35,959 bases of DNA from Candidatus Woesearchaeota archaeon (GTDB taxonomy: Archaea; Nanobdellota; Nanobdellia; Woesearchaeales; GW2011-AR4): positions 1-35,959 of the forward strand of contig JACOZN010000006.1 in NCBI GenBank assembly GCA_016181305.1. The letters run 5' to 3'. The position numbers were made by a program, and so were the translations under genes. The notes below the pieces were generated by a model. The model saw only the letters and a list, made by a program, of their open reading frames with translations, did not search any database and had not been told where the DNA came from. This document shows, piece by piece, positions 2,390 through 26,739 of the stretch; the stretch's first letter is position 1; each line of letters begins with the position of its first letter.

Positions 2390-2450
2390 TTATATATACT
2401 AGTTAAACAATATACCCAACATTGCAGTAAAGCATAGGGTGGTAATAATT
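2390..2450 (+). promoter_or_regulatory. Leader of AbrB-PhoU gene 1: TATA box, GGGTGGT site and ATT start
   Basis: A TATA box lies at about 2390-2398, predicting a transcript start near 2420. GGGTGGT at 2437-2443 is followed by four bases and then ATT at 2448-2450. The GTG at 2439 lies inside the ribosome-binding site and is not a likely start. The same arrangement occurs at 10159-10172 and, with ATG instead of ATT, before the zinc ribbon at 10537. Confidence 0.55.
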
Positions 2451-9168: not shown

Positions 9169-10161
9169 CTACTCACAGCACATTACCATCCTTGCAGCAA
9201 GCCTTATCTCTGCTGCTGTTGCCTTCAGGTTTTCCACAATTTTGGCTACTGCAACAAGGCCTGTATATTCTGGCTTGCGCTTGCGGCTTCCGCATTCATG
9301 GCTGTACTCTTCAAGTATCCTGTCGCATGCGGATGTCCTATCCTTATGGGAATCCTCGATCAGGAAAGAAACTTGCCTGTCATTGGTGTAATATGCCTTC
9401 ATAACCTCATTGTAAGACTCGCTTATGTCTGTGTGAACCCTGTCCAGCTGTGCAAGGGTAGCCCTGTCAAGGCTGGATGTGCATACATACCTTGCAATCC
9501 TTTTCTGCCTGTCAGCTATTTTCTCAAGCCTCAGGATGATATGCGAGTCATTATGAAGCTGCCACACATTCAATCCAAGCGATTTTGCAATTCTTGGGTT
9601 TTTCATCGCATTTTTTATAACCCTGTAGCCCAGAAAGAACAGCCTGTTCACGTCAGTGTCCCTGTTTACTATGCTGTCGTAATTGCACTCCCCCCTGCAG
9701 CACAAGATGCAGTCCTCCATCATCGCCCTTGTTATTATGTCCATCCGCCTTATTATGTTGGCAATGGATATATCATTCACGTTGATCAGGTTTTTTGCAG
9801 TTATCCTGGTTGAAGTCTGCTCCATGATCTCCAGGCCTGAAAGGTTCCTTATTATCTCTTTTATCCTTGGGACTTCCTTGCTGCCGCTCTCAAGCAGGAT
9901 GGTGATTGTGTCGTAGCCGTTAAGGTAGGAGCTTACAATCTCTGACTTAAGAATTCCAAGGCTCTTGCCCTTGGCGTCTATGCTCGCTTCTTTTGAGTCC
10001 GGCTTTTTCTCCTGCTGTCCCGCGCTTAATACAAGCTCAACCCCGTCGTCGCTTACAGAAATCAAGTCGCCTTTTTTCAGGTTATTTTTTTCAACCCAGC
10101 CCTTCGGCATTGACACAATGTAAGAGCCCTTGCCAAAGCTTATCAGTTTTCTGACGTCAAT
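9169..10161 (-). CDS. AbrB-PhoU domain protein 2
   Basis: Same architecture as the gene at 2448: AbrB-like DNA-binding domain (DVRKLISFGKGSYIVSMPKGWV, KKGDLISV) followed by PhoU-like helical bundles (NRLFFLGYRVIKNAM, ILRLEKIADRQKRIARY). In-frame ATGs at 10197 and 10194 lie between the TATA box (10204-10211) and the predicted transcript start near 10181, so they are unlikely to be in the mRNA. The family usually starts at M-D/E-V/I-R-K, which here is ATT at 10159-10161 behind GGGTGGT and a 4-nt spacer. Unlike gene 1 it has a cysteine cluster (CILCCRGEC) in the first PhoU bundle that could bind metal or sense redox state. It is divergent from the small acidic and zinc-ribbon genes. Confidence 0.85.
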   Translation of the reverse strand: MDVRKLISFGKGSYIVSMPKGWVEKNNLKKGDLISVSDDGVELVLSAGQQEKKPDSKEASIDAKGKSLGILKSEIVSSYLNGYDTITILLESGSKEVPRIKEIIRNLSGLEIMEQTSTRITAKNLINVNDISIANIIRRMDIITRAMMEDCILCCRGECNYDSIVNRDTDVNRLFFLGYRVIKNAMKNPRIAKSLGLNVWQLHNDSHIILRLEKIADRQKRIARYVCTSSLDRATLAQLDRVHTDISESYNEVMKAYYTNDRQVSFLIEDSHKDRTSACDRILEEYSHECGSRKRKPEYTGLVAVAKIVENLKATAAEIRLAARMVMCCE

Positions 10162-10211
10162 GATTACCACCCTTTGTTTTAGCAGGTTGTGCATCAAAAT
10201 ACCTATATAAA
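10159..10211 (-). promoter_or_regulatory. Leader of AbrB-PhoU gene 2: TATA box, GGGTGGT site and ATT start
   Basis: On the minus strand the TATA box is at 10211-10204, GGGTGGT at 10172-10166, then AATC, then ATT at 10161-10159. Element and spacing are the same as for the paralogue at 2437-2450. Confidence 0.55.
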
Positions 10212-18674: not shown

Positions 18675-19613
18675 TTAATAAATACTCTCAAAGAATTGTG
18701 GATAATATTTATAATAAATACAATATTTTTTAAGTACTTCTGTTTTTATACCTATCTTTTTACTTGGATTTGATCTTAGTTTTTTATCTTGCTTGATAAG
18801 GGAATCTATATGCATTTTTTCTTTTAATGAGATTATAGGACAATCTATATCTAGAATTTCTTGAGTATTCCTGCAAAAATAGAAATTTGATAATTCTTTT
18901 TTTAATATTCCTATATCCAACTCTTTACAGAATATAACACCGAATGTATACATTCTTTTTGTATCCTTATAGGATAAATTGAACATAGGTATATATGCAA
19001 TCTCTTCTATTTGATTTCTTAACCCATTTTGAATCGAGGTTATTAAAATTGAATTTAACATTTTTGGAAAGTCTTTGATATCTTTTAGCATTACTTCTCC
19101 AGGGAGGTATTGTTGATATTTCGTCTTGAAATTTTTTAATGCTTCTAAACTACTTGGAGATTCACCTTCAATAGTCACCAAAAGAAAGTCATTCGCTTTA
19201 GCATGTGATGAAATTATTTCCACATCAGATATCATCGATTCATCTATTTCTTTATCATAATCTAACCATACAAATAATTTGTCATTCCAAGGTGCAAATC
19301 TTTGAAAATATTCTTGAGAATCGCAAATATTTAACTTTACAAAGTCAAATGGTTTATTAAATTTAAATCTAATCTTATCATCTTTTTTATTTTCAATCGA
19401 AGTCATTTTATTTATGTTAAGATACTTATGGAACATAATAAAATCTGCAAAGTAAACAGAACCAAACCCAATATAATGATATTTATCTATTTCAATTTTT
19501 ATAGAAGCACTTAGGTGTAATAATGCCTCAATGATAAGCTTACGCTCAATTTGCTTTTTAAGACGTAATAAATAATTTACTTTCTCATAACTATACTCTA
19601 CTAGATTAGTCAT
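18675..19613 (-). CDS. O-methyltransferase-like protein, partner of GHKL ATPase, 312 aa
   Basis: The protein has a Rossmann-like SAM-binding start (YIGFGSVYFADF, residues 47-58), an acidic strand end (SIEN) and a WLDYD motif at the position of motif IV. This layout matches a poorly characterised O-methyltransferase-like family that I recall being found next to GHKL ATPases in restriction-modification-type loci; that is from memory, not a search. It overlaps the 3' end of the ATPase gene by eight bases, so the two are one operon and probably one complex. The DNA is AT-rich like the rest of the island. No nuclease domain is visible. Confidence 0.65.
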   Translation of the reverse strand: MTNLVEYSYEKVNYLLRLKKQIERKLIIEALLHLSASIKIEIDKYHYIGFGSVYFADFIMFHKYLNINKMTSIENKKDDKIRFKFNKPFDFVKLNICDSQEYFQRFAPWNDKLFVWLDYDKEIDESMISDVEIISSHAKANDFLLVTIEGESPSSLEALKNFKTKYQQYLPGEVMLKDIKDFPKMLNSILITSIQNGLRNQIEEIAYIPMFNLSYKDTKRMYTFGVIFCKELDIGILKKELSNFYFCRNTQEILDIDCPIISLKEKMHIDSLIKQDKKLRSNPSKKIGIKTEVLKKYCIYYKYYPQFFESIY

Positions 19614-20922
19614 TTGTTATCTCCTCTATTTCAATATAATAGTCAAAAGTTTTTTCTCCAACCGATCTATTGGACATTGAGGAATCTCCAAGTTTCTTTT
19701 TTACCTTTTTTACTAGTTCTTTTTCTTTTGAGTAAGATATATTTGTCCATTTTGATATCGGTGCATCTTTATAAACAATATCACCCTTAACAACAGGTAT
19801 AATACCCTTTGATTCTTCTTTAATATCCTTTCTTGCAATTTCAGTAATTCCTTTAAAAAGAGATCTACCTATTGTATCTCCAGTTTCTTTATCTTTTGTT
19901 CTACCAGCAAGTCGTATTACTTCAACAAAAAGATTAGTAACCGATCTCATTTCAACTTGTGCTTTTCGATATATAGGTGAATCTTCTTGTATATCTTCTT
20001 TAGTAGTATGCCATGGTAATGAGATTGGATTATCTGATCTAAAAAAAACTAATCCTAAAAACTTATTATCTTCGGCATAATGATAAATTTTACCATCTGA
20101 CCCACCCCAACCTGTTTTTGTAGTCGTGTCATTTCTAATAATCAATCGATCGTTACAAAAGACATACCAACCGTATGTTTTAACCTCCCAAATGTCTCCT
20201 GGGGTAAAACCCGCATAAATTTCTACTTCTACTTCCCCCCAATTAAATTTTTTATGATAAGGTTTAAATTTTTTATTCTCAGATAAAAAATTGAATTCAT
20301 ATGGTTCTACTGGTATATTCTTTACATTAATTGTTACTTTTTCAGTTATTAAAATTGAATATGTATTCTTTATCTTCTCTCTAAGAGTATTTTCAAAATG
20401 AACTGTATCAAATTCCTTGCTAATCCCAGAATATAACTCGGTTATAGTAATTCTTGTCATCGGTTTTCCCTTGGATTTTGTTTCTTTCTCAAAACTGAGT
20501 TTCCAGTTTTCTTCATCAATAATCCATTTTTCATTAATTCTAATAGAATAATAATCATGACCATCATCAGATTCAATAAGTATATTTTTACCCATCTTGA
20601 ATATTGCTCTCTTCATGCCTACCCCAAATACACCGATAGTTTTTACTTTTACCTCTTTTAGCATTCCAAATCTGAATACCTTATCATAGATATTTTCTTT
20701 TTTTATACCTCCACAATCGTCTTCTATAACAAATTGATCTTTAGAAAAGTTGACTGAAATGTTTTTTCTTCCTTTCAACTTATTCTCAATATATCCATCT
20801 ATGGAGTTATCAATAAGATCGAGTACTGCATCAGTTAGTTGTATATCTCTAACAAGAGTTGCGATAAAGAAACTTTTAGTTGGAGATGCATCTATTTCGC
20901 TACTGGGCAAAGATTTAGGCAT
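19606..20922 (-). CDS. GHKL (MORC/MutL-like) ATPase of a defence cassette, 438 aa
   Basis: The N-terminal GHKL ATPase fold shows the N-box DLIDNSID (residues 35-42), the Mg/adenine motif EDDCGG (67-72) and the ATP lid GVFGVGMKRA (97-106). The usual catalytic Glu of the N-box is Asp here. The middle third is beta-rich, like the transducer domain of MutL/MORC proteins, and the C-terminal third is helical and Lys/Glu-rich. Prokaryotic MORC/MutL-like ATPases are known from R-M-type operons (Iyer, Abhiman and Aravind 2008). ATG 20922 follows GGGGTGGT, with a TATA box near 20955-20964. The gene is divergent from the Dam-type methylase. Confidence 0.75.
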   Translation of the reverse strand: MPKSLPSSEIDASPTKSFFIATLVRDIQLTDAVLDLIDNSIDGYIENKLKGRKNISVNFSKDQFVIEDDCGGIKKENIYDKVFRFGMLKEVKVKTIGVFGVGMKRAIFKMGKNILIESDDGHDYYSIRINEKWIIDEENWKLSFEKETKSKGKPMTRITITELYSGISKEFDTVHFENTLREKIKNTYSILITEKVTINVKNIPVEPYEFNFLSENKKFKPYHKKFNWGEVEVEIYAGFTPGDIWEVKTYGWYVFCNDRLIIRNDTTTKTGWGGSDGKIYHYAEDNKFLGLVFFRSDNPISLPWHTTKEDIQEDSPIYRKAQVEMRSVTNLFVEVIRLAGRTKDKETGDTIGRSLFKGITEIARKDIKEESKGIIPVVKGDIVYKDAPISKWTNISYSKEKELVKKVKKKLGDSSMSNRSVGEKTFDYYIEIEEITND

Positions 20923-21026
20923 ATTACCACCCCATTAATTAACAACAAAACAAGTATATAAAAATCTTATGTTTTGTAACCGATATAAACTATACATTTT
21001 TATACTAGTATTTATAAGAGTAGATT

Positions 21027-21881
21027 ATGAACGTAAAAACTCCAACATTCTTAAAATGGGCTGGTGGTAAACAACAATTATTATCTCAATTCTCTAACTA
21101 TTTCCCAACAAATGTTGATTACTATGTAGAACCTTTTTTGGGAGGGGGGGCAGTTTTTTTCTATATCTTAAAGTACAAGCATCCAAAATCTGCAAGGGCA
21201 TTTGACAGTAATAAAGAGTTGATTAATGTATATTTGCAAGTTAAAAATAATATTGATGAACTTATAAAACAACTTGAAATACTAGAAAACGAACATAATA
21301 ATACAAACGACCCATTAAAATACTATTATTCAAAAAGAACAGAATTTAATCATTTAATATCAAATAAAAGACATCTTAGGAAAAATGATATTAAAAAGGC
21401 AGCTATTTTTATATATTTAAATAAAACTTGTTATAATGGATTATATAGAGTAAATTCTTTAGGCGAATTTAATGTTCCCTTTAATGGGTGTGAAAAAGTC
21501 AATCTGTTTGATAAAGAAAATTTAATTGAAGCCAATAATTTAATTAAAGACATAAATTTTGAATGTAAAGATTTTAGAGATGTCAAATTTTATAAAAAGG
21601 AAACAATATATTTTGACCCACCTTATTGGCCCAAAAAAAATGGGTTTATAAGCTATACTAATCCCCAATTTAGTCAAAATTCTCAAATTTTATTAGCAAA
21701 TTTATTTAAAAAACTTCATGCAAAAGGGTACAAATCATTGATATTAAGTAATAGTGATACTCAATTTATAGATCAACTTTATAATGAGTTTAATATATTT
21801 AAAATAAATGCTAGACGAATGATTAATTGTAATGGTAATGGGAGAACTAAGATTAACGAAGTATTAATCACTAATTATTAG
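21027..21881 (+). CDS. Dam-type (D12 class) DNA adenine-N6 methyltransferase
   Basis: The order is that of alpha-class N6-adenine methylases: motif X/I FLKWAGGKQQLL (residues 8-19) with FLGGGAVFF, then the target-recognition middle, then the catalytic DPPY at residue 197. The length of 284 residues is normal for Dam/DpnM. A TATA-like box at 20997-21003 gives a leaderless start. It is divergent from the GHKL ATPase pair and could modify self DNA for that cassette. It could also be the second methylase of the R-M system at 22.1-24.0 kb, since some systems (DpnII type) have two. The recognition site cannot be read from sequence; GATC is common for this class. Confidence 0.88.
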   Translation: MNVKTPTFLKWAGGKQQLLSQFSNYFPTNVDYYVEPFLGGGAVFFYILKYKHPKSARAFDSNKELINVYLQVKNNIDELIKQLEILENEHNNTNDPLKYYYSKRTEFNHLISNKRHLRKNDIKKAAIFIYLNKTCYNGLYRVNSLGEFNVPFNGCEKVNLFDKENLIEANNLIKDINFECKDFRDVKFYKKETIYFDPPYWPKKNGFISYTNPQFSQNSQILLANLFKKLHAKGYKSLILSNSDTQFIDQLYNEFNIFKINARRMINCNGNGRTKINEVLITNY

Positions 21882-21922
21882 ACATAAAGTTTATATAGAC
21901 CACTATTATAATAAATTCCAAA

Positions 21923-22069
21923 ATGCCTAACGTAATAAAATCTGAATGCCCAAAATGTGGTAAAAAAGGAAAGAATTATGAACAGATTGAAGATAAATTC
22001 GGTTGGAGAATAATTAAGGGTAAAAAGAGGCCTCAATCTTATTGTAGGGAATGTAGGAGAAGATTTTGA
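21923..22069 (+). CDS. Small zinc-ribbon protein, 48 aa
   Basis: A TATA box at 21890-21897 lies 26 nt before the ATG at 21923, giving a leaderless start. The protein has ECPKCGKKG near the N-terminus and YCRECRRRF at the C-terminus, a four-cysteine ribbon in a very basic chain, suggesting nucleic-acid binding. It sits between the Dam-type methylase and the R-M controller, inside the AT-rich island. It could be an accessory of either system. Its cysteine spacing differs from the two 46-residue ribbons elsewhere in the window. Confidence 0.65.
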   Translation: MPNVIKSECPKCGKKGKNYEQIEDKFGWRIIKGKKRPQSYCRECRRRF

Positions 22070-22116
22070 AAACCGCAACATTTATATATGTGTTTACTTC
22101 GTGCGTTCTATGTGGT

Positions 22117-22151
22117 TAAATATATATAAGCTGGTGCATTCATAGAATGCA
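22117..22151 (+). promoter_or_regulatory. Promoter and palindromic operator of the methylase-side controller
   Basis: An AT-rich TATA box (about 22117-22128) is followed by a perfect inverted repeat TGCATTC-ATA-GAATGCA at 22135-22151, whose last base is the first base of the ATG. With a leaderless transcript, the operator covers the transcription start and the start codon. A related half-site TTCTATG lies just upstream near 22107. The layout predicts autoregulation by the winged-helix protein. Confidence 0.6.
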
Positions 22152-22423
22152 TGGAAAGACAAATTATTAAAGGTATAAGCCTTATCAAAAACTCTGATTA
22201 CAGGAAAAGAATATTAATCAGTTTAAGTGACATAAACTATTTAACCCCATCAGAAATTTCACAAAAAACAAAAATAAGACTTAATCATGTCAGTAACTTT
22301 TTAAAAGACCTAAAAGATAGCAAATTAATATTGTGTCTAAATGATGAGGACAAAAGAGGCAGATTATATCAAATTACAGATTTAGGAAAAAAGGTGATTA
22401 AAGAAAATGGAACTCAAGATTAA
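22151..22423 (+). CDS. Winged-helix regulator, methylase-side controller of R-M system, 90 aa
   Basis: A compact winged-helix protein: helix-turn-helix at TPSEISQKTKIRLNHVSNFLKDLKDSKLI followed by a wing (NDEDKRGRLYQITDLGKKVI). It overlaps the methylase start (22407) by 17 bases, so both are translated from one message. Its sequence is homologous to the controller at 23747-23998 (shared pattern RK..L..L, ASF/NFLK.L....LI.C.N..DK.G.LY.IT..G). It probably acts like a C protein that balances methylase and nuclease expression, by binding the palindrome at its own start. That role is inferred. Confidence 0.75.
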   Translation: MERQIIKGISLIKNSDYRKRILISLSDINYLTPSEISQKTKIRLNHVSNFLKDLKDSKLILCLNDEDKRGRLYQITDLGKKVIKENGTQD

Positions 22424-23210
22424 CCAAATAATTCCAGGAGATTGTTTGGACACATTTAAAAAAATCCCAGATGAGTTTGTTGATTTAATAGTCACTGATC
22501 CACCTTTTAATATCGGCAAAAATTACAAGACCTACAAAGATAGGATGACAAAAGAAGGGTACATTAAGTGGTGTGAAGAATGGCTTGCCGAATGTATAAG
22601 AATTCTAAAACCTCATGGCAGTTTATACTTATTCAATTATCCGGAAAATAATGCTTATTTAATGCCCTTTCTTGACAAAAACATGATTTTCAAAAGATGG
22701 ATGACTTGGCATTATCCTACAAATACTGGAATGTCCCCAACAAACTATACAAGATCACAGCACAGCATACTTTTTTACACAAAAACGGAAAAAGCAACGT
22801 GGAATAAAAATTCAATAGCAGAGCCATATAGGAACCCGACAGATAAGAGAATCTTGGATAGACTAAAGAATGGAAGTGCAGGTAAAACTCCTTACGATGT
22901 TTTTAATTATAATATTGTCAAAAATGTAAATAAAGATAAAACTGAACATGTTTGCCAGTTGCCTGTTGAATTGGTTGAAACACTCATTAGGGCAAGCAGT
23001 AATGAAGGGGATTTAGTTTTTGATCCTTTCATGGGTTCTGGAACTGTGGCAGTAGCAGCTAAAAAGTTAGGTAGGAATTATTTGGGTTGTGAAATCGATA
23101 AGTATTATTGCAAAATAATCAACGAACGATTATCGAAAATTGAAAAACCATTAAGTAGATTTACTGAAATAAAGGCAAAGAACATGGCAGCAATTACAAG
23201 CTTTCTATAA
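22407..23210 (+). CDS. Type II DNA methyltransferase (beta class, DPPF)
   Basis: Motif IV DLIVTDPPFNIG lies near the N-terminus (residues 26-37), and motif I FDPFMGSGTVAVAAKKLGRNYLGCEID at the C-terminus; this order defines beta-class amino-methyltransferases. DPPF indicates N6-adenine rather than N4-cytosine targets, though exceptions exist. It is 267 residues long. The start overlaps the upstream controller gene, and the end overlaps the nuclease gene tail by six bases on the opposite strand. It protects host DNA against the nuclease encoded at 23205-23750. Confidence 0.88.
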   Translation: MELKINQIIPGDCLDTFKKIPDEFVDLIVTDPPFNIGKNYKTYKDRMTKEGYIKWCEEWLAECIRILKPHGSLYLFNYPENNAYLMPFLDKNMIFKRWMTWHYPTNTGMSPTNYTRSQHSILFYTKTEKATWNKNSIAEPYRNPTDKRILDRLKNGSAGKTPYDVFNYNIVKNVNKDKTEHVCQLPVELVETLIRASSNEGDLVFDPFMGSGTVAVAAKKLGRNYLGCEIDKYYCKIINERLSKIEKPLSRFTEIKAKNMAAITSFL

Positions 23211-23750
23211 TTTTACTTTTTCTCGCTTTAGCTTTACAGTATTTCTAGGAGTTATTTCAAAATCTCCAAAGAAAACAATTTTATCTTTTTTCTCATAAAC
23301 TGCTTTTGCTGTTAATGTTGGTCCATAAAATTTCTTTTTAATGTTAGATTTCCAATCGACATTTTTAAGTTGGGTTAAACAACAAAAAAATTCGTCAAAA
23401 TTCCCTCCCCAAGATATTAGTAAATAATCAAATGGTCTTTGACTAAATTCACCACCTGTCCAAGCGTTTTCAGTTGAGGTCATTTTTATTTCCATAGGCT
23501 TATTTATTTTAGTGAATAAAAGGTCTGGTTCTCTATCAGCCAATGCCCTTTTTACTTTGTAACCTAATCTCTTTGTAAAGACATCAGACGCCACCTTTTC
23601 CATAATTTTGCCTATGATTTCAGATAAATTCTTATTACTAAAACTGAGGTCGTATTCGTCCATAAGTTCTTTTTTGAATTTCTGCATCCTAAAAGAAACC
23701 CCTTCAAGAATTTCTACTACCATATCTTTAGTAATATTAAATTCATTCAT
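23205..23750 (-). CDS. Type II restriction endonuclease-like protein, PD-(D/E)XK type, 181 aa
   Basis: A PD-(D/E)XK nuclease core can be read as EPDLLF with P75-D76, then PMEIKM with E87-x-K89, preceded by a helix (SEIIGKIMEKVASDVFTKRLGYKVKRAL). This matches small type II enzymes. It is convergent with the DPPF methylase and forms an operon with a winged-helix gene (ATG/TGA overlap of four bases at 23747-23750). I cannot name its recognition site. Confidence 0.75.
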   Translation of the reverse strand: MNEFNITKDMVVEILEGVSFRMQKFKKELMDEYDLSFSNKNLSEIIGKIMEKVASDVFTKRLGYKVKRALADREPDLLFTKINKPMEIKMTSTENAWTGGEFSQRPFDYLLISWGGNFDEFFCCLTQLKNVDWKSNIKKKFYGPTLTAKAVYEKKDKIVFFGDFEITPRNTVKLKREKVKL

Positions 23751-24535: not shown

Positions 24536-24569
24536 GTAACTAATTACTTATATTAGTAAAATGTTACTT
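24529..24569 (+). promoter_or_regulatory. Promoter and palindrome of MNT/HEPN cassette 1
   Basis: TATA box TTTATAAG at 24529-24536 is 25 nt before ATG 24561. Overlapping and following it is an inverted repeat AAGTAA-CTAA-TTACTT at 24534-24549. A further half-site, GTTACTT, lies at 24563-24569 inside the start of the gene. The GTAAC/GTTAC core is shared with cassette 2. Confidence 0.5.
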
Positions 24570-25154
24570 AATAATACAGAACTACTAATCATTGAGCCTT
24601 TTGTCCTGAATTACAGGGCGAGGCTTACAGGCAGCGCTATAGCAAAAACCAAAAAGCTGAACCAAAAAACAGTCTCAAATTATCTAAAGAGCCTTGAAAG
24701 CCAGAATTTCCTGAAAAGCGCAGAAGAGGGCAGGAACAGGCTGTACTTCCTGAATCTGAATGATGAGCAGCTTATAGTAAATTTCATCTCAGCGGTTGAA
24801 AATGCGAGAACAATAAATTTTTATCAAAAGCATATACTAATAAAGGAAATAGCGGCGAAGATACTGCCGCATACCAGGGGAATCTCATTGATATTTGGAA
24901 GCTATGCGAAAGGAAATGAGAAGGAAGGCTCGGATTTGGATATTTTTATTGCAGGAAGCGCAGATGAAGGCCAAATTGATAAAATTGCTAATGTATACCA
25001 TTTGGAGATCAGTATCAAAAAATACACGATGCTGGAATTCAAAAAAGCTCTAAAGGAAAACGACCCGTTAATAAAAGAGGTAATAAACAACCACATTTTA
25101 ATGCAGAATGCGCAGGAATTTGTGGGATGCGTGAGGGATGCCGAAAATGATTGA
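24561..25154 (+). CDS. Winged-helix/MNT nucleotidyltransferase fusion (antitoxin of HEPN cassette 1), 197 aa
   Basis: Residues 1-75 form a winged helix (GSAIAKTKKLNQKTVSNYLKSLESQNFLK). Residues 80-190 are a minimal nucleotidyltransferase with the canonical GSYAKGNEKEGSDLDIF motif (GS ... DxD). MNT proteins pair with HEPN ribonucleases as toxin-antitoxin modules, and in studied cases the MNT inactivates the toxin by adding nucleotides to it. Here the fused DNA-binding domain would also repress the operon through the palindrome at 24534-24549. The gene overlaps the HEPN start. Confidence 0.85.
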   Translation: MLLNNTELLIIEPFVLNYRARLTGSAIAKTKKLNQKTVSNYLKSLESQNFLKSAEEGRNRLYFLNLNDEQLIVNFISAVENARTINFYQKHILIKEIAAKILPHTRGISLIFGSYAKGNEKEGSDLDIFIAGSADEGQIDKIANVYHLEISIKKYTMLEFKKALKENDPLIKEVINNHILMQNAQEFVGCVRDAEND

Positions 25155-25641
25155 ATGGTGCATGAAGCTGAAAAACGGAATTGAGCTTGCAGCCCCAAAC
25201 GACAACCTTTGCAGAGCTTATATGCAAAAAGCAGAAACAGCGCTAAGTGCAGCTTCAGCATTGAGCGGGAATAAAGAATGGGAAGTATCTTCAAGCTATT
25301 ATGCCATGTACTTTTCCCTGTATGCGGTTATGAGCAAGATTGGAGTCAAATGCGAGAATCATAGCTGCAGCATCGCTTTCATGAAAGAGTTCCTGTCTGA
25401 AAAATTCAAAAAGGCTGATTCGGATTTTCTCAAAAAGGCCATGCATGCAAGGATCGATATGCAATATTATTCAAACAGGGGCATTGATGACGAATTCTAC
25501 CAGAAAATGATGAAAAATGCCCCGGTTTTTCTTGTTGAGTGCAAGGAGATAATTAACTCAATAAAGCATGAGGAAATAACCCAAATAAGGGATGAATTGG
25601 AAAAAATAAAAGAAGAGCTCAGTAAAAATCCAAATAAGTAA
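25147..25641 (+). CDS. HEPN-domain protein (toxin of cassette 1), 164 aa
   Basis: The protein is an all-helical HEPN fold: KAYMQKAE-type first helix, SSYYAMYFSLYAVMSKIGVKCENHSCSIAFMKEF, then RIDMQYY, the conserved Arg-containing motif. The classical RX4-6H His is not present at the expected spacing, so nuclease activity is uncertain. Homologous proteins start at MIEWC, so ATG 25147 is preferred over ATG 25138. It overlaps the MNT gene by eight bases and is co-expressed with it. Confidence 0.8.
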   Translation: MIEWCMKLKNGIELAAPNDNLCRAYMQKAETALSAASALSGNKEWEVSSSYYAMYFSLYAVMSKIGVKCENHSCSIAFMKEFLSEKFKKADSDFLKKAMHARIDMQYYSNRGIDDEFYQKMMKNAPVFLVECKEIINSIKHEEITQIRDELEKIKEELSKNPNK

Positions 25642-25718
25642 CAAAATCCTTGCAAACAACCTAATCTCCTTCTGCATAAGGCATTTTGATGATTATGAGC
25701 CAATAATAAACCAAAAGA

Positions 25719-25749
25719 TTTAAATACTAATGTAACAAATATGTTACAT
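25719..25749 (+). promoter_or_regulatory. Promoter and palindromic operator of MNT/HEPN cassette 2
   Basis: TATA box TTTAAATA at 25719-25726 is 24 nt before ATG 25750. Between them is a perfect inverted repeat ATGTAAC-N6-GTTACAT at 25730-25749, directly abutting the start codon. This placement fits autorepression by the winged-helix domain of the MNT protein. Confidence 0.6.
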
Positions 25750-26289
25750 ATGAAACAAAAATTATACAATACTATTTTGAACCTGCTTAATGGGGACAAC
25801 CATCTGAGGCAGATAGCCAAGGACATCAAGACAAACCATATGACAGTAAAAAGAGCCCTCGATATTTTAATAAAGGAAAACGTCCTTGATGTGAGGAAAG
25901 AGGGGAAAAACAGCATATATTCGATAAAGAAGACTTTGGAAGCGCAGAACTTCGTCTTTATGGCGGAAATCTACAAATTCAACAGCTTAATAAAAAAGCA
26001 CCCTGAATTAAAGCAGGATTTAAAGGAATTAAAAAAACTGCATATTAACATTATTGCAGTCTTCGGAAGCTATGCCAAGAGCATTGAAACAGATAAAAGC
26101 GACATTGACATGTATATCGAAACTCAGAATGGTAAAATAAAGAGGGAAGCTTCCAAAATAAACAGGAAATTCAGCATCAAAACAGGCTTATACGCCAAAG
26201 ACAGCCTGCTTATAAAAGAAATTGAAAAAAACCACATAATCGTGAAAGGGGTTGAAATTTTTTATGAAAAAAATAAATTTTTTGATTAA
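25750..26289 (+). CDS. Winged-helix/MNT nucleotidyltransferase fusion (antitoxin of HEPN cassette 2), 179 aa
   Basis: The architecture is the same as at 24561: an N-terminal winged helix (LRQIAKDIKTNHMTVKRALDILIKENVL) and an MNT domain with GSYAKSIETDKSDIDMYI. An ATG at 25741 lies inside the palindrome; the ATG at 25750 has the right TATA spacing for a leaderless start. The C-terminus overlaps the start of the broken HEPN gene. The two cassettes are clearly paralogous but well diverged, so the duplication or double acquisition is old. Confidence 0.83.
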   Translation: MKQKLYNTILNLLNGDNHLRQIAKDIKTNHMTVKRALDILIKENVLDVRKEGKNSIYSIKKTLEAQNFVFMAEIYKFNSLIKKHPELKQDLKELKKLHINIIAVFGSYAKSIETDKSDIDMYIETQNGKIKREASKINRKFSIKTGLYAKDSLLIKEIEKNHIIVKGVEIFYEKNKFFD

Positions 26290-26739
26290 GCTCAAGGAAG
26301 AGGGAAAGCTCTCCATTACAGATCCAAGCGAAGAAGTCAAGGAATCTTATATAAGGAAATCCGCAAGTTCGTTAAAATCGGCGGAATTTTATTGGGAAAT
26401 GGGCAGGTGGAAGATGCAGTACCCATGGCGTATTATTCCATGTACAACATGCTCACTGCCCTTCTCTATAAAGCAGGCATAAAATGCGAAAACCATTCGG
26501 CATCCATAATCATTTTAAAAGAATTATTTGGCATAGAAAATTCAAAGATAATCTTCGCAAAAAAGGAAAGGGTGGATAAGCAATACTATGTGGATTTTAA
26601 AATAACAAAAGAAGAAGTCGGAAATATGATTAAATCAGCGGAGCAGTTTAATTCAATGCTCTATGATTTTATTGACAAATTAACGGCAAAAAAGGCATCA
26701 GAGTACAGGAAAGAGTTTGAAGACAGTTTAGTAAATTAA
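26264..26739 (+). pseudogene. HEPN-domain protein of cassette 2, frameshifted
   Basis: The first frame starts at ATG 26264 and reads MKKINFLIKLKEEGK ... SLKSAEFYWEMGR. It then runs into nonsense and ends at 26482. The HEPN homology continues in another frame, VEDAVPMAYYSMYNMLTALLYKAGIKCENHSASIIILKE ... ERVDKQYYVDF, to the stop at 26737-26739. Inserting one G at about 26406-26407 restores MGR-VEDAVPMAYY. The break removes the toxin while leaving the antitoxin intact, which would be tolerated by the cell, but a sequencing error cannot be excluded. Confidence 0.75.

Follow-up and report, generated by a model that had tools for sequence, protein, structure and literature searches.

The DNA analysed here, hereafter the window, is a 35,959-nucleotide stretch from the genome of a Candidatus Woesearchaeota archaeon (contig JACOZN010000006.1), and it includes two genes for AbrB-PhoU proteins (Table 1). 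The N-terminal SpoVT/AbrB-MazE domain (PF04014) scored above the Pfam cut-off in paralogue 1 as it did in paralogue 2 (8e-7). The C-terminal PhoU domain (PF01895) reached 18.5 bits in paralogue 2, against a cut-off of 23.5, and the match of this protein to TIGR02135 was weak; PF01895 was not among the Pfam matches listed for paralogue 1.

Table 1. Coordinates of the two AbrB-PhoU genes and of their initiation signals in the window
Feature	Coordinates	Strand	Basis
AbrB-PhoU gene, paralogue 1 (group B type), read from ATT, 312 aa	2448..3386	+	PF04014, 6.5e-11
ATT start codon, paralogue 1	2448..2450	+	sequence, family comparison
Shine-Dalgarno (SD) GGGTGGT, paralogue 1, holding in-frame GTG 2439-2441; spacer AATA	2437..2443	+	sequence
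AbrB-PhoU gene, paralogue 2 (group A), read from ATT, 330 aa	9169..10161	-	PF04014, sub-threshold PhoU, orthologues
ATT start codon, paralogue 2	10159..10161	-	ATT/ATC/ATA in 18/18 genus orthologues; distant ones mostly ATG
SD GGGTGGT, paralogue 2, spacer AATC (4 nt) to ATT	10166..10172	-	G.U-containing pairing with 16S tail
Rival GTG, in frame, inside SD, paralogue 2	10168..10170	-	orthologues without GTG or with a stop after it
TATA box TTTATATA, paralogue 2	10204..10211	-	sequence; transcript start ~10181 predicted from spacing
Upstream in-frame TTG-ATG (TTG 10197, ATG 10194), not conserved	10192..10197	-	downstream of TATA box, ahead of predicted transcript start

Common to both window genes is an SD, AGGGTGGT, followed by ATT at the position of the family's start methionine. 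The original prediction had placed GGGTGGT-AATC-ATT on the minus strand exactly where the family would start (M-D-V-R-K-L), and these elements are indeed present at 10172-10159, with GAC GTC AGA AAA CTG (D-V-R-K-L) after the ATT. Similarly, the same start that it had claimed for the other paralogue is found as GGGTGGT-AATA-ATT at 2437-2450, with AAA AGA AAA GTT directly 3′ of the ATT. AUU and AUC lie outside the textbook set of start codons. A point that had gone unweighed is that the SD of both window genes contains an in-frame GTG; in fact, GGGTGGT-N4-ATT by its makeup always includes one. This GTG is the canonical alternative upstream of the ATT in paralogue 1, and paralogue 2 offers GTG, ATG and TTG in frame, of which annotators would choose GTG 10170, ATG 10194 or TTG 10197.

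Unrelated genes of the window's genome, for example one resembling superoxide dismutase and one resembling SDR genes (names from sequence resemblance), likewise have GGTGGT 3-5 nt ahead of their ATG, and judging from these the SD of the AUH genes (AUH being AUU, AUC or AUA; ATH in the DNA) is the ordinary SD of these genomes. The 16S tail is canonical, CTGGATCACCTCC, in two members of the genus (G016 and G019), and the SD pairs, with G.U, to ...GGATCACCTCC; worked by hand, GGGGUGGU against 3′-CUCCACUA-5′ permits eight paired positions, of which two are G.U. A search of the window's own assembly did not find its 16S 3′ end. An unusual 16S tail was rejected as the cause of the AUH starts on the strength of the canonical tails in G016 and G019. 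Genome-wide statistics were drawn from stretches of sequence amounting to 401 kb of the window's genome and 1.19 Mb in all, and in a strict screen for SDs the start codons that stood apart from background were mostly ATG (48) and TTG (14), so AUH is a minority class. ARAGORN, run in its bacterial mode with the initiator tRNA in mind, returned very few tRNAs from the sampled stretches.

Spacing from the TATA box was calibrated on 1.19 Mb of sequence from three genus members. ORFs there that lack an SD have their ATG 29-32 nt downstream of the first T of TTTATA, and the distribution peaks sharply at 30 (46 cases), which is the pattern expected of leaderless mRNAs. By this spacing the transcript of paralogue 2 would begin at about 10181 and carry a leader of about 20 nt. 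ATG 10194 and TTG 10197, 13-16 nt upstream of this predicted end, should therefore be absent from the mRNA, as the original prediction had anticipated.

To place these starts within their family we searched for orthologues in 59 related genomes and in GTDB genomes, all of them metagenome assemblies, and the matches in GTDB came nearly all from Candidatus Woesearchaeota and other Nanoarchaeota. Among the 18 group A orthologues of the genus with a readable start, the codon is ATT in nine, ATC in eight and ATA in one, never ATG, and it is preceded by GGGGTGGT or a close variant. Thus GGTGGT-N4-ATT does recur in relatives, and the suggestion that the shared start of the paralogues was no chance event was borne out, the arrangement being present in all 18 and in most genes of the family. 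Across the 36-genome family, ATT, ATC or ATA occupies the start in 42 of 58 AbrB-PhoU genes: 24 of 27 in group A (the others being two ATG and one GTG), and 18 of 31 in group B together with paralogue 1 genes, where nine have ATG and four TTG. At least five of these nine ATG genes lack an SD and appear to be leaderless or to belong to other subgroups. A further AbrB-PhoU paralogue, seen in L004 (G000:C2) and L184, lacks an SD and has its ATG-ATA-ATG start about 24 nt downstream of a TATA-like box; it is probably leaderless, in contrast to the SD-led AUH paralogues.

More distant orthologues mostly have ATG at the homologous codon, for example MDVRKLISFGKGSYVVSIPK in L117 and MEFRKLISF in L118, with isolated cases of ATA (L132, L135). 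Among relatives, the homologous codon is ATG in L065 (GGGTGGTTTAA-ATG) and TTG in L039, L048 and the C20 paralogue of the window's own genome, and the TAA-ATC of L055 stands against TAA-ATG in L065. Exchange of ATH for ATG or TTG at one homologous position is the way start codons evolve, and a position homologous to the ATG start of relatives is what would be expected of a genuine non-canonical start, as is the SD that lies at proper spacing before the ATH. Since some relatives use ATG, TTG or GTG, an AUH start is not essential for the AbrB-PhoU family.

The codons around the start also bear on where translation begins. Over the 18 genus orthologues, the synonymous share of differing codon pairs is 10% at codon -1, 100% at codons 0 and +1, and 72-100% over codons 0 to +14; codon -1 is thus free of coding constraint, and substitution of the coding type starts exactly at the ATH codon. 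Internal isoleucine codons of these genes are 50% ATA, 32% ATT and 18% ATC, and ATA occurs at the start in only 1 of 18 orthologues, a comparison of related rows that is to be read as a tendency and not as a formal test; the start tends in this respect to be unlike an ordinary internal isoleucine codon. Moreover, nine of the 42 ATH genes have no in-frame ATG, GTG or TTG back to the preceding stop, five of them with TAA directly before the ATH, and the next canonical codon can lie as far on as codon 46 (L028) or 70 (L057). At the level of sequence comparison, then, the position of the start, its conservation, its SD and the absence of alternatives in many orthologues are all established.

That this kind of start is perhaps specific to AbrB-PhoU, as had also been proposed, did not hold. 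By scanning genes conserved between three sampled genomes we found a gene for an AI-2E family transporter (PF01594, 171.8 bits) whose conserved N-terminus starts with ATC or ATT after GCGGTGAGA or similar sequences. This start occurs in 13 genus members (at least 13 species), nine of which have no in-frame ATG, GTG or TTG back to the stop; L239 and L246 were not clearly readable, and L240 and L241, at contig ends, could not be placed. Eight other family members have ATG at the start codon, again homologous to the ATH, and the codon is ATA in L258 and ATC in L261, as it is in L263 from another family of the order. A restriction of AUH starts to AbrB-PhoU is ruled out by this gene. Orthologues devoid of any canonical alternative thus number nine for AbrB-PhoU and nine for AI-2E, and the two genes of the window are not among them. 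One of the AI-2E genes (L236; G000:C2, about 66978, minus strand) apparently lies just downstream of a tRNA.

Beyond these families we found single candidates. ORFs whose conservation reaches upstream of the first canonical codon were screened for, with much noise, as conserved promoters and wrong-strand ORFs also align; on inspection only AI-2E and one gene of G001 held up. The latter, of 150 codons, has ATC after GGTGGTTTAA and its first canonical codon at 49, and the window's genome has ATG there. Two further AUH starts are possible: a glyA-like gene (G001:C3 188033, plus strand), with ATC 4 nt after AGGTGGT and an ATG two codons on, and a gene for a 269-aa protein (G001:C3 157203, minus strand; homologue G000:C2 28803, plus strand), with ATC after GGGTG in both genomes and an in-frame GTG as well. 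Matches to the pattern in G008, G012, G021, G033 and G016 yielded two more possible cases, ATC in the gene for a secretion F-like membrane protein (L231, G008:C36) and ATT in that for a lipoprotein (L233, G012:C22), and the others look like chance.

Taken as a whole, we consider it very probable that ATT is the true start, reached by way of the SD; AUH would then have been kept by selection, most likely for an output that is low or dependent on initiation stringency. The strong SD in a leader of about 20 nt would fix the small subunit and place initiator Met-tRNA over AUU, AUC or AUA, where it would start with two of the three codon bases paired, and the first residue would be methionine, giving M-D-V-R-K-L. 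Such a weak start may hold protein output low, or tie it to start-codon stringency as set by aIF1, aIF1A and aIF2, and selection would keep AUH in two AbrB-PhoU groups and in the AI-2E gene of this Woesearchaeota family. The original prediction stands in that ATT is very probably the start, that the paralogues agree and that relatives share the arrangement; its restriction to AbrB-PhoU falls. Low-efficiency or regulated initiation, which it had also suggested, is favoured because ATT and ATC have been kept although ATG is one substitution away, and these genes are probably weakly translated or under control. Indeed, the group A tree implies at least eight changes of start codon within the genus, never to ATG or GTG, and the avoidance of ATG, a single step away and the commonest start, argues for selection on a weak start.

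The start-codon fidelity factor aIF1 is encoded in 34 of the 35 genomes searched, including the window's own, and its loss was thereby dismissed as the cause of AUH starts; given its presence, output should be low and sensitive to the stringency of initiation. According to work cited in PMC6237735, aIF1 of Sulfolobus helps to discriminate against non-canonical starts, and by analogy it is a plausible factor for holding down AUU and AUC starts. Autoregulation of aIF1 of the infC kind was rejected, since its own gene starts with ATG in the genus loci inspected.

It is quite possible, if not the reading we would choose, that AUH starts are merely tolerated, through relaxed start-codon fidelity and drift, and have no regulatory role, an account that bears only on the regulatory part of the explanation. 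The presence of AUH in the AI-2E gene and perhaps in single other genes would fit it, as would the alternation of AUH, TTG and ATG in group B. Against it stand the predominance of ATG and TTG among sampled SD-led genes, the repeated changes on the group A tree that never arrive at ATG or GTG, and the occurrence of aIF1 in 19 of 20 genus genomes, including the window's own.

As to the position of the start, translation could instead begin at the GTG inside GGGTGGT (10170; 2439 in paralogue 1), leaving ATT as an ordinary isoleucine three codons in. In archaea GTG is an ordinary start codon, 16 of 18 genus orthologues have this one in frame, and a gene caller restricted to ATG, GTG and TTG would pick it or a codon upstream. 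We nonetheless regard this as very unlikely. The in-frame GTG is absent from four orthologues (L010, L016, L028, L177), and in five others (L031, L037, L055, L057, L186) a stop, the TAA directly before the ATH, intervenes, so that reading from GTG could never reach the protein. In addition, the GTG would be without an SD of its own, codon -1 does not evolve as coding sequence, and ATA is avoided at the ATH position. The orthologues that lack the GTG or have the intervening stop rule it out; in both window genes the GTG is in frame, and there its exclusion comes only through analogy with those orthologues.

Initiation at ATG 10194, on a transcript beginning further upstream, is less credible again and in our view extremely improbable. 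An in-frame ATG is present in the window gene and, at a different position, in its closest relative (L020), but ATG 10194 is only 17 nt away from the TATA box's first T, as against the calibrated 29-32 nt, lacks an SD and is not conserved among the other orthologues; spacing and non-conservation together rule it out. Finally, the notion that the genes are decayed or mis-assembled and have lost their start codon has no specific support, save that purM of the same window does carry a frameshift, and we give it practically no credence in view of open frames of 300-350 codons with strong amino-acid conservation in 18 independent genomes.

The closest precedents for such a start are bacterial. The gene for initiation factor IF3, infC, uses ATT as its start in E. 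coli, ATC in Streptomyces, and is held down by IF3, and sigR of Streptomyces starts with GTC behind a conserved strong extended SD, AGGAGGTG, and has been found by experiment to be IF3-repressed; annotations of Streptomyces genomes commonly misplace both starts, and for sigR the choice falls on a canonical codon a short way upstream (PMC5472188). As with infC, the AUU or AUC start of the Woesearchaeota genes occurs in more than one species; unlike infC, whose product is a fidelity factor that autoregulates, they encode AbrB-PhoU proteins and an AI-2E transporter. The likeness to sigR extends to a regulator gene with a conserved non-canonical start, a strong SD and mis-annotation to an upstream canonical codon, whereas sigR is bacterial and uses GTC or GTT, and its repression is experimental where AUH in Woesearchaeota is known from sequence. 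A review of archaeal initiation names AUG, GUG and UUG as starts in all mRNA types, with AUU absent from its text, and describes the pairing of SDs with the 3′ tail of 16S rRNA that is also predicted here (PMC7531240).

Full-text searches of open papers found no report of an AUU or AUC start in archaea, and by comparison with infC and sigR what appears new is the conservation of AUH starts in archaea, in families unrelated to initiation. More tentatively, and with some doubt on our part, selection might maintain AUU and AUC as a regular class of starts in several unrelated families of SD-led genes, with output set by aIF1-dependent stringency in an archaeal parallel to the IF3-controlled starts. 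If AUH starts are truly conserved over an archaeal genus and beyond, start-codon stringency may serve regulation in archaea too, and in DPANN genomes at large gene callers would be giving these proteins misplaced or truncated N-termini.

Elsewhere in the window, purM (phosphoribosylformylglycinamidine cyclo-ligase, TIGR00878; 769-1821, plus strand) is split by a frameshift near 820-838, either a sequencing error or a real lesion. Genes for a Methyltransf_35 protein, a HATPase, a D12-class adenine methylase, an N6/N4 DNA methylase and a small protein that matched no Pfam family lie at 18675-23750, in what looks like a modification or defence island. At 24561-26739 a Polbeta/NTP-transferase gene overlaps a HEPN gene and an apparent second such pair follows, which looks like a toxin-antitoxin arrangement of the MNT-HEPN type.
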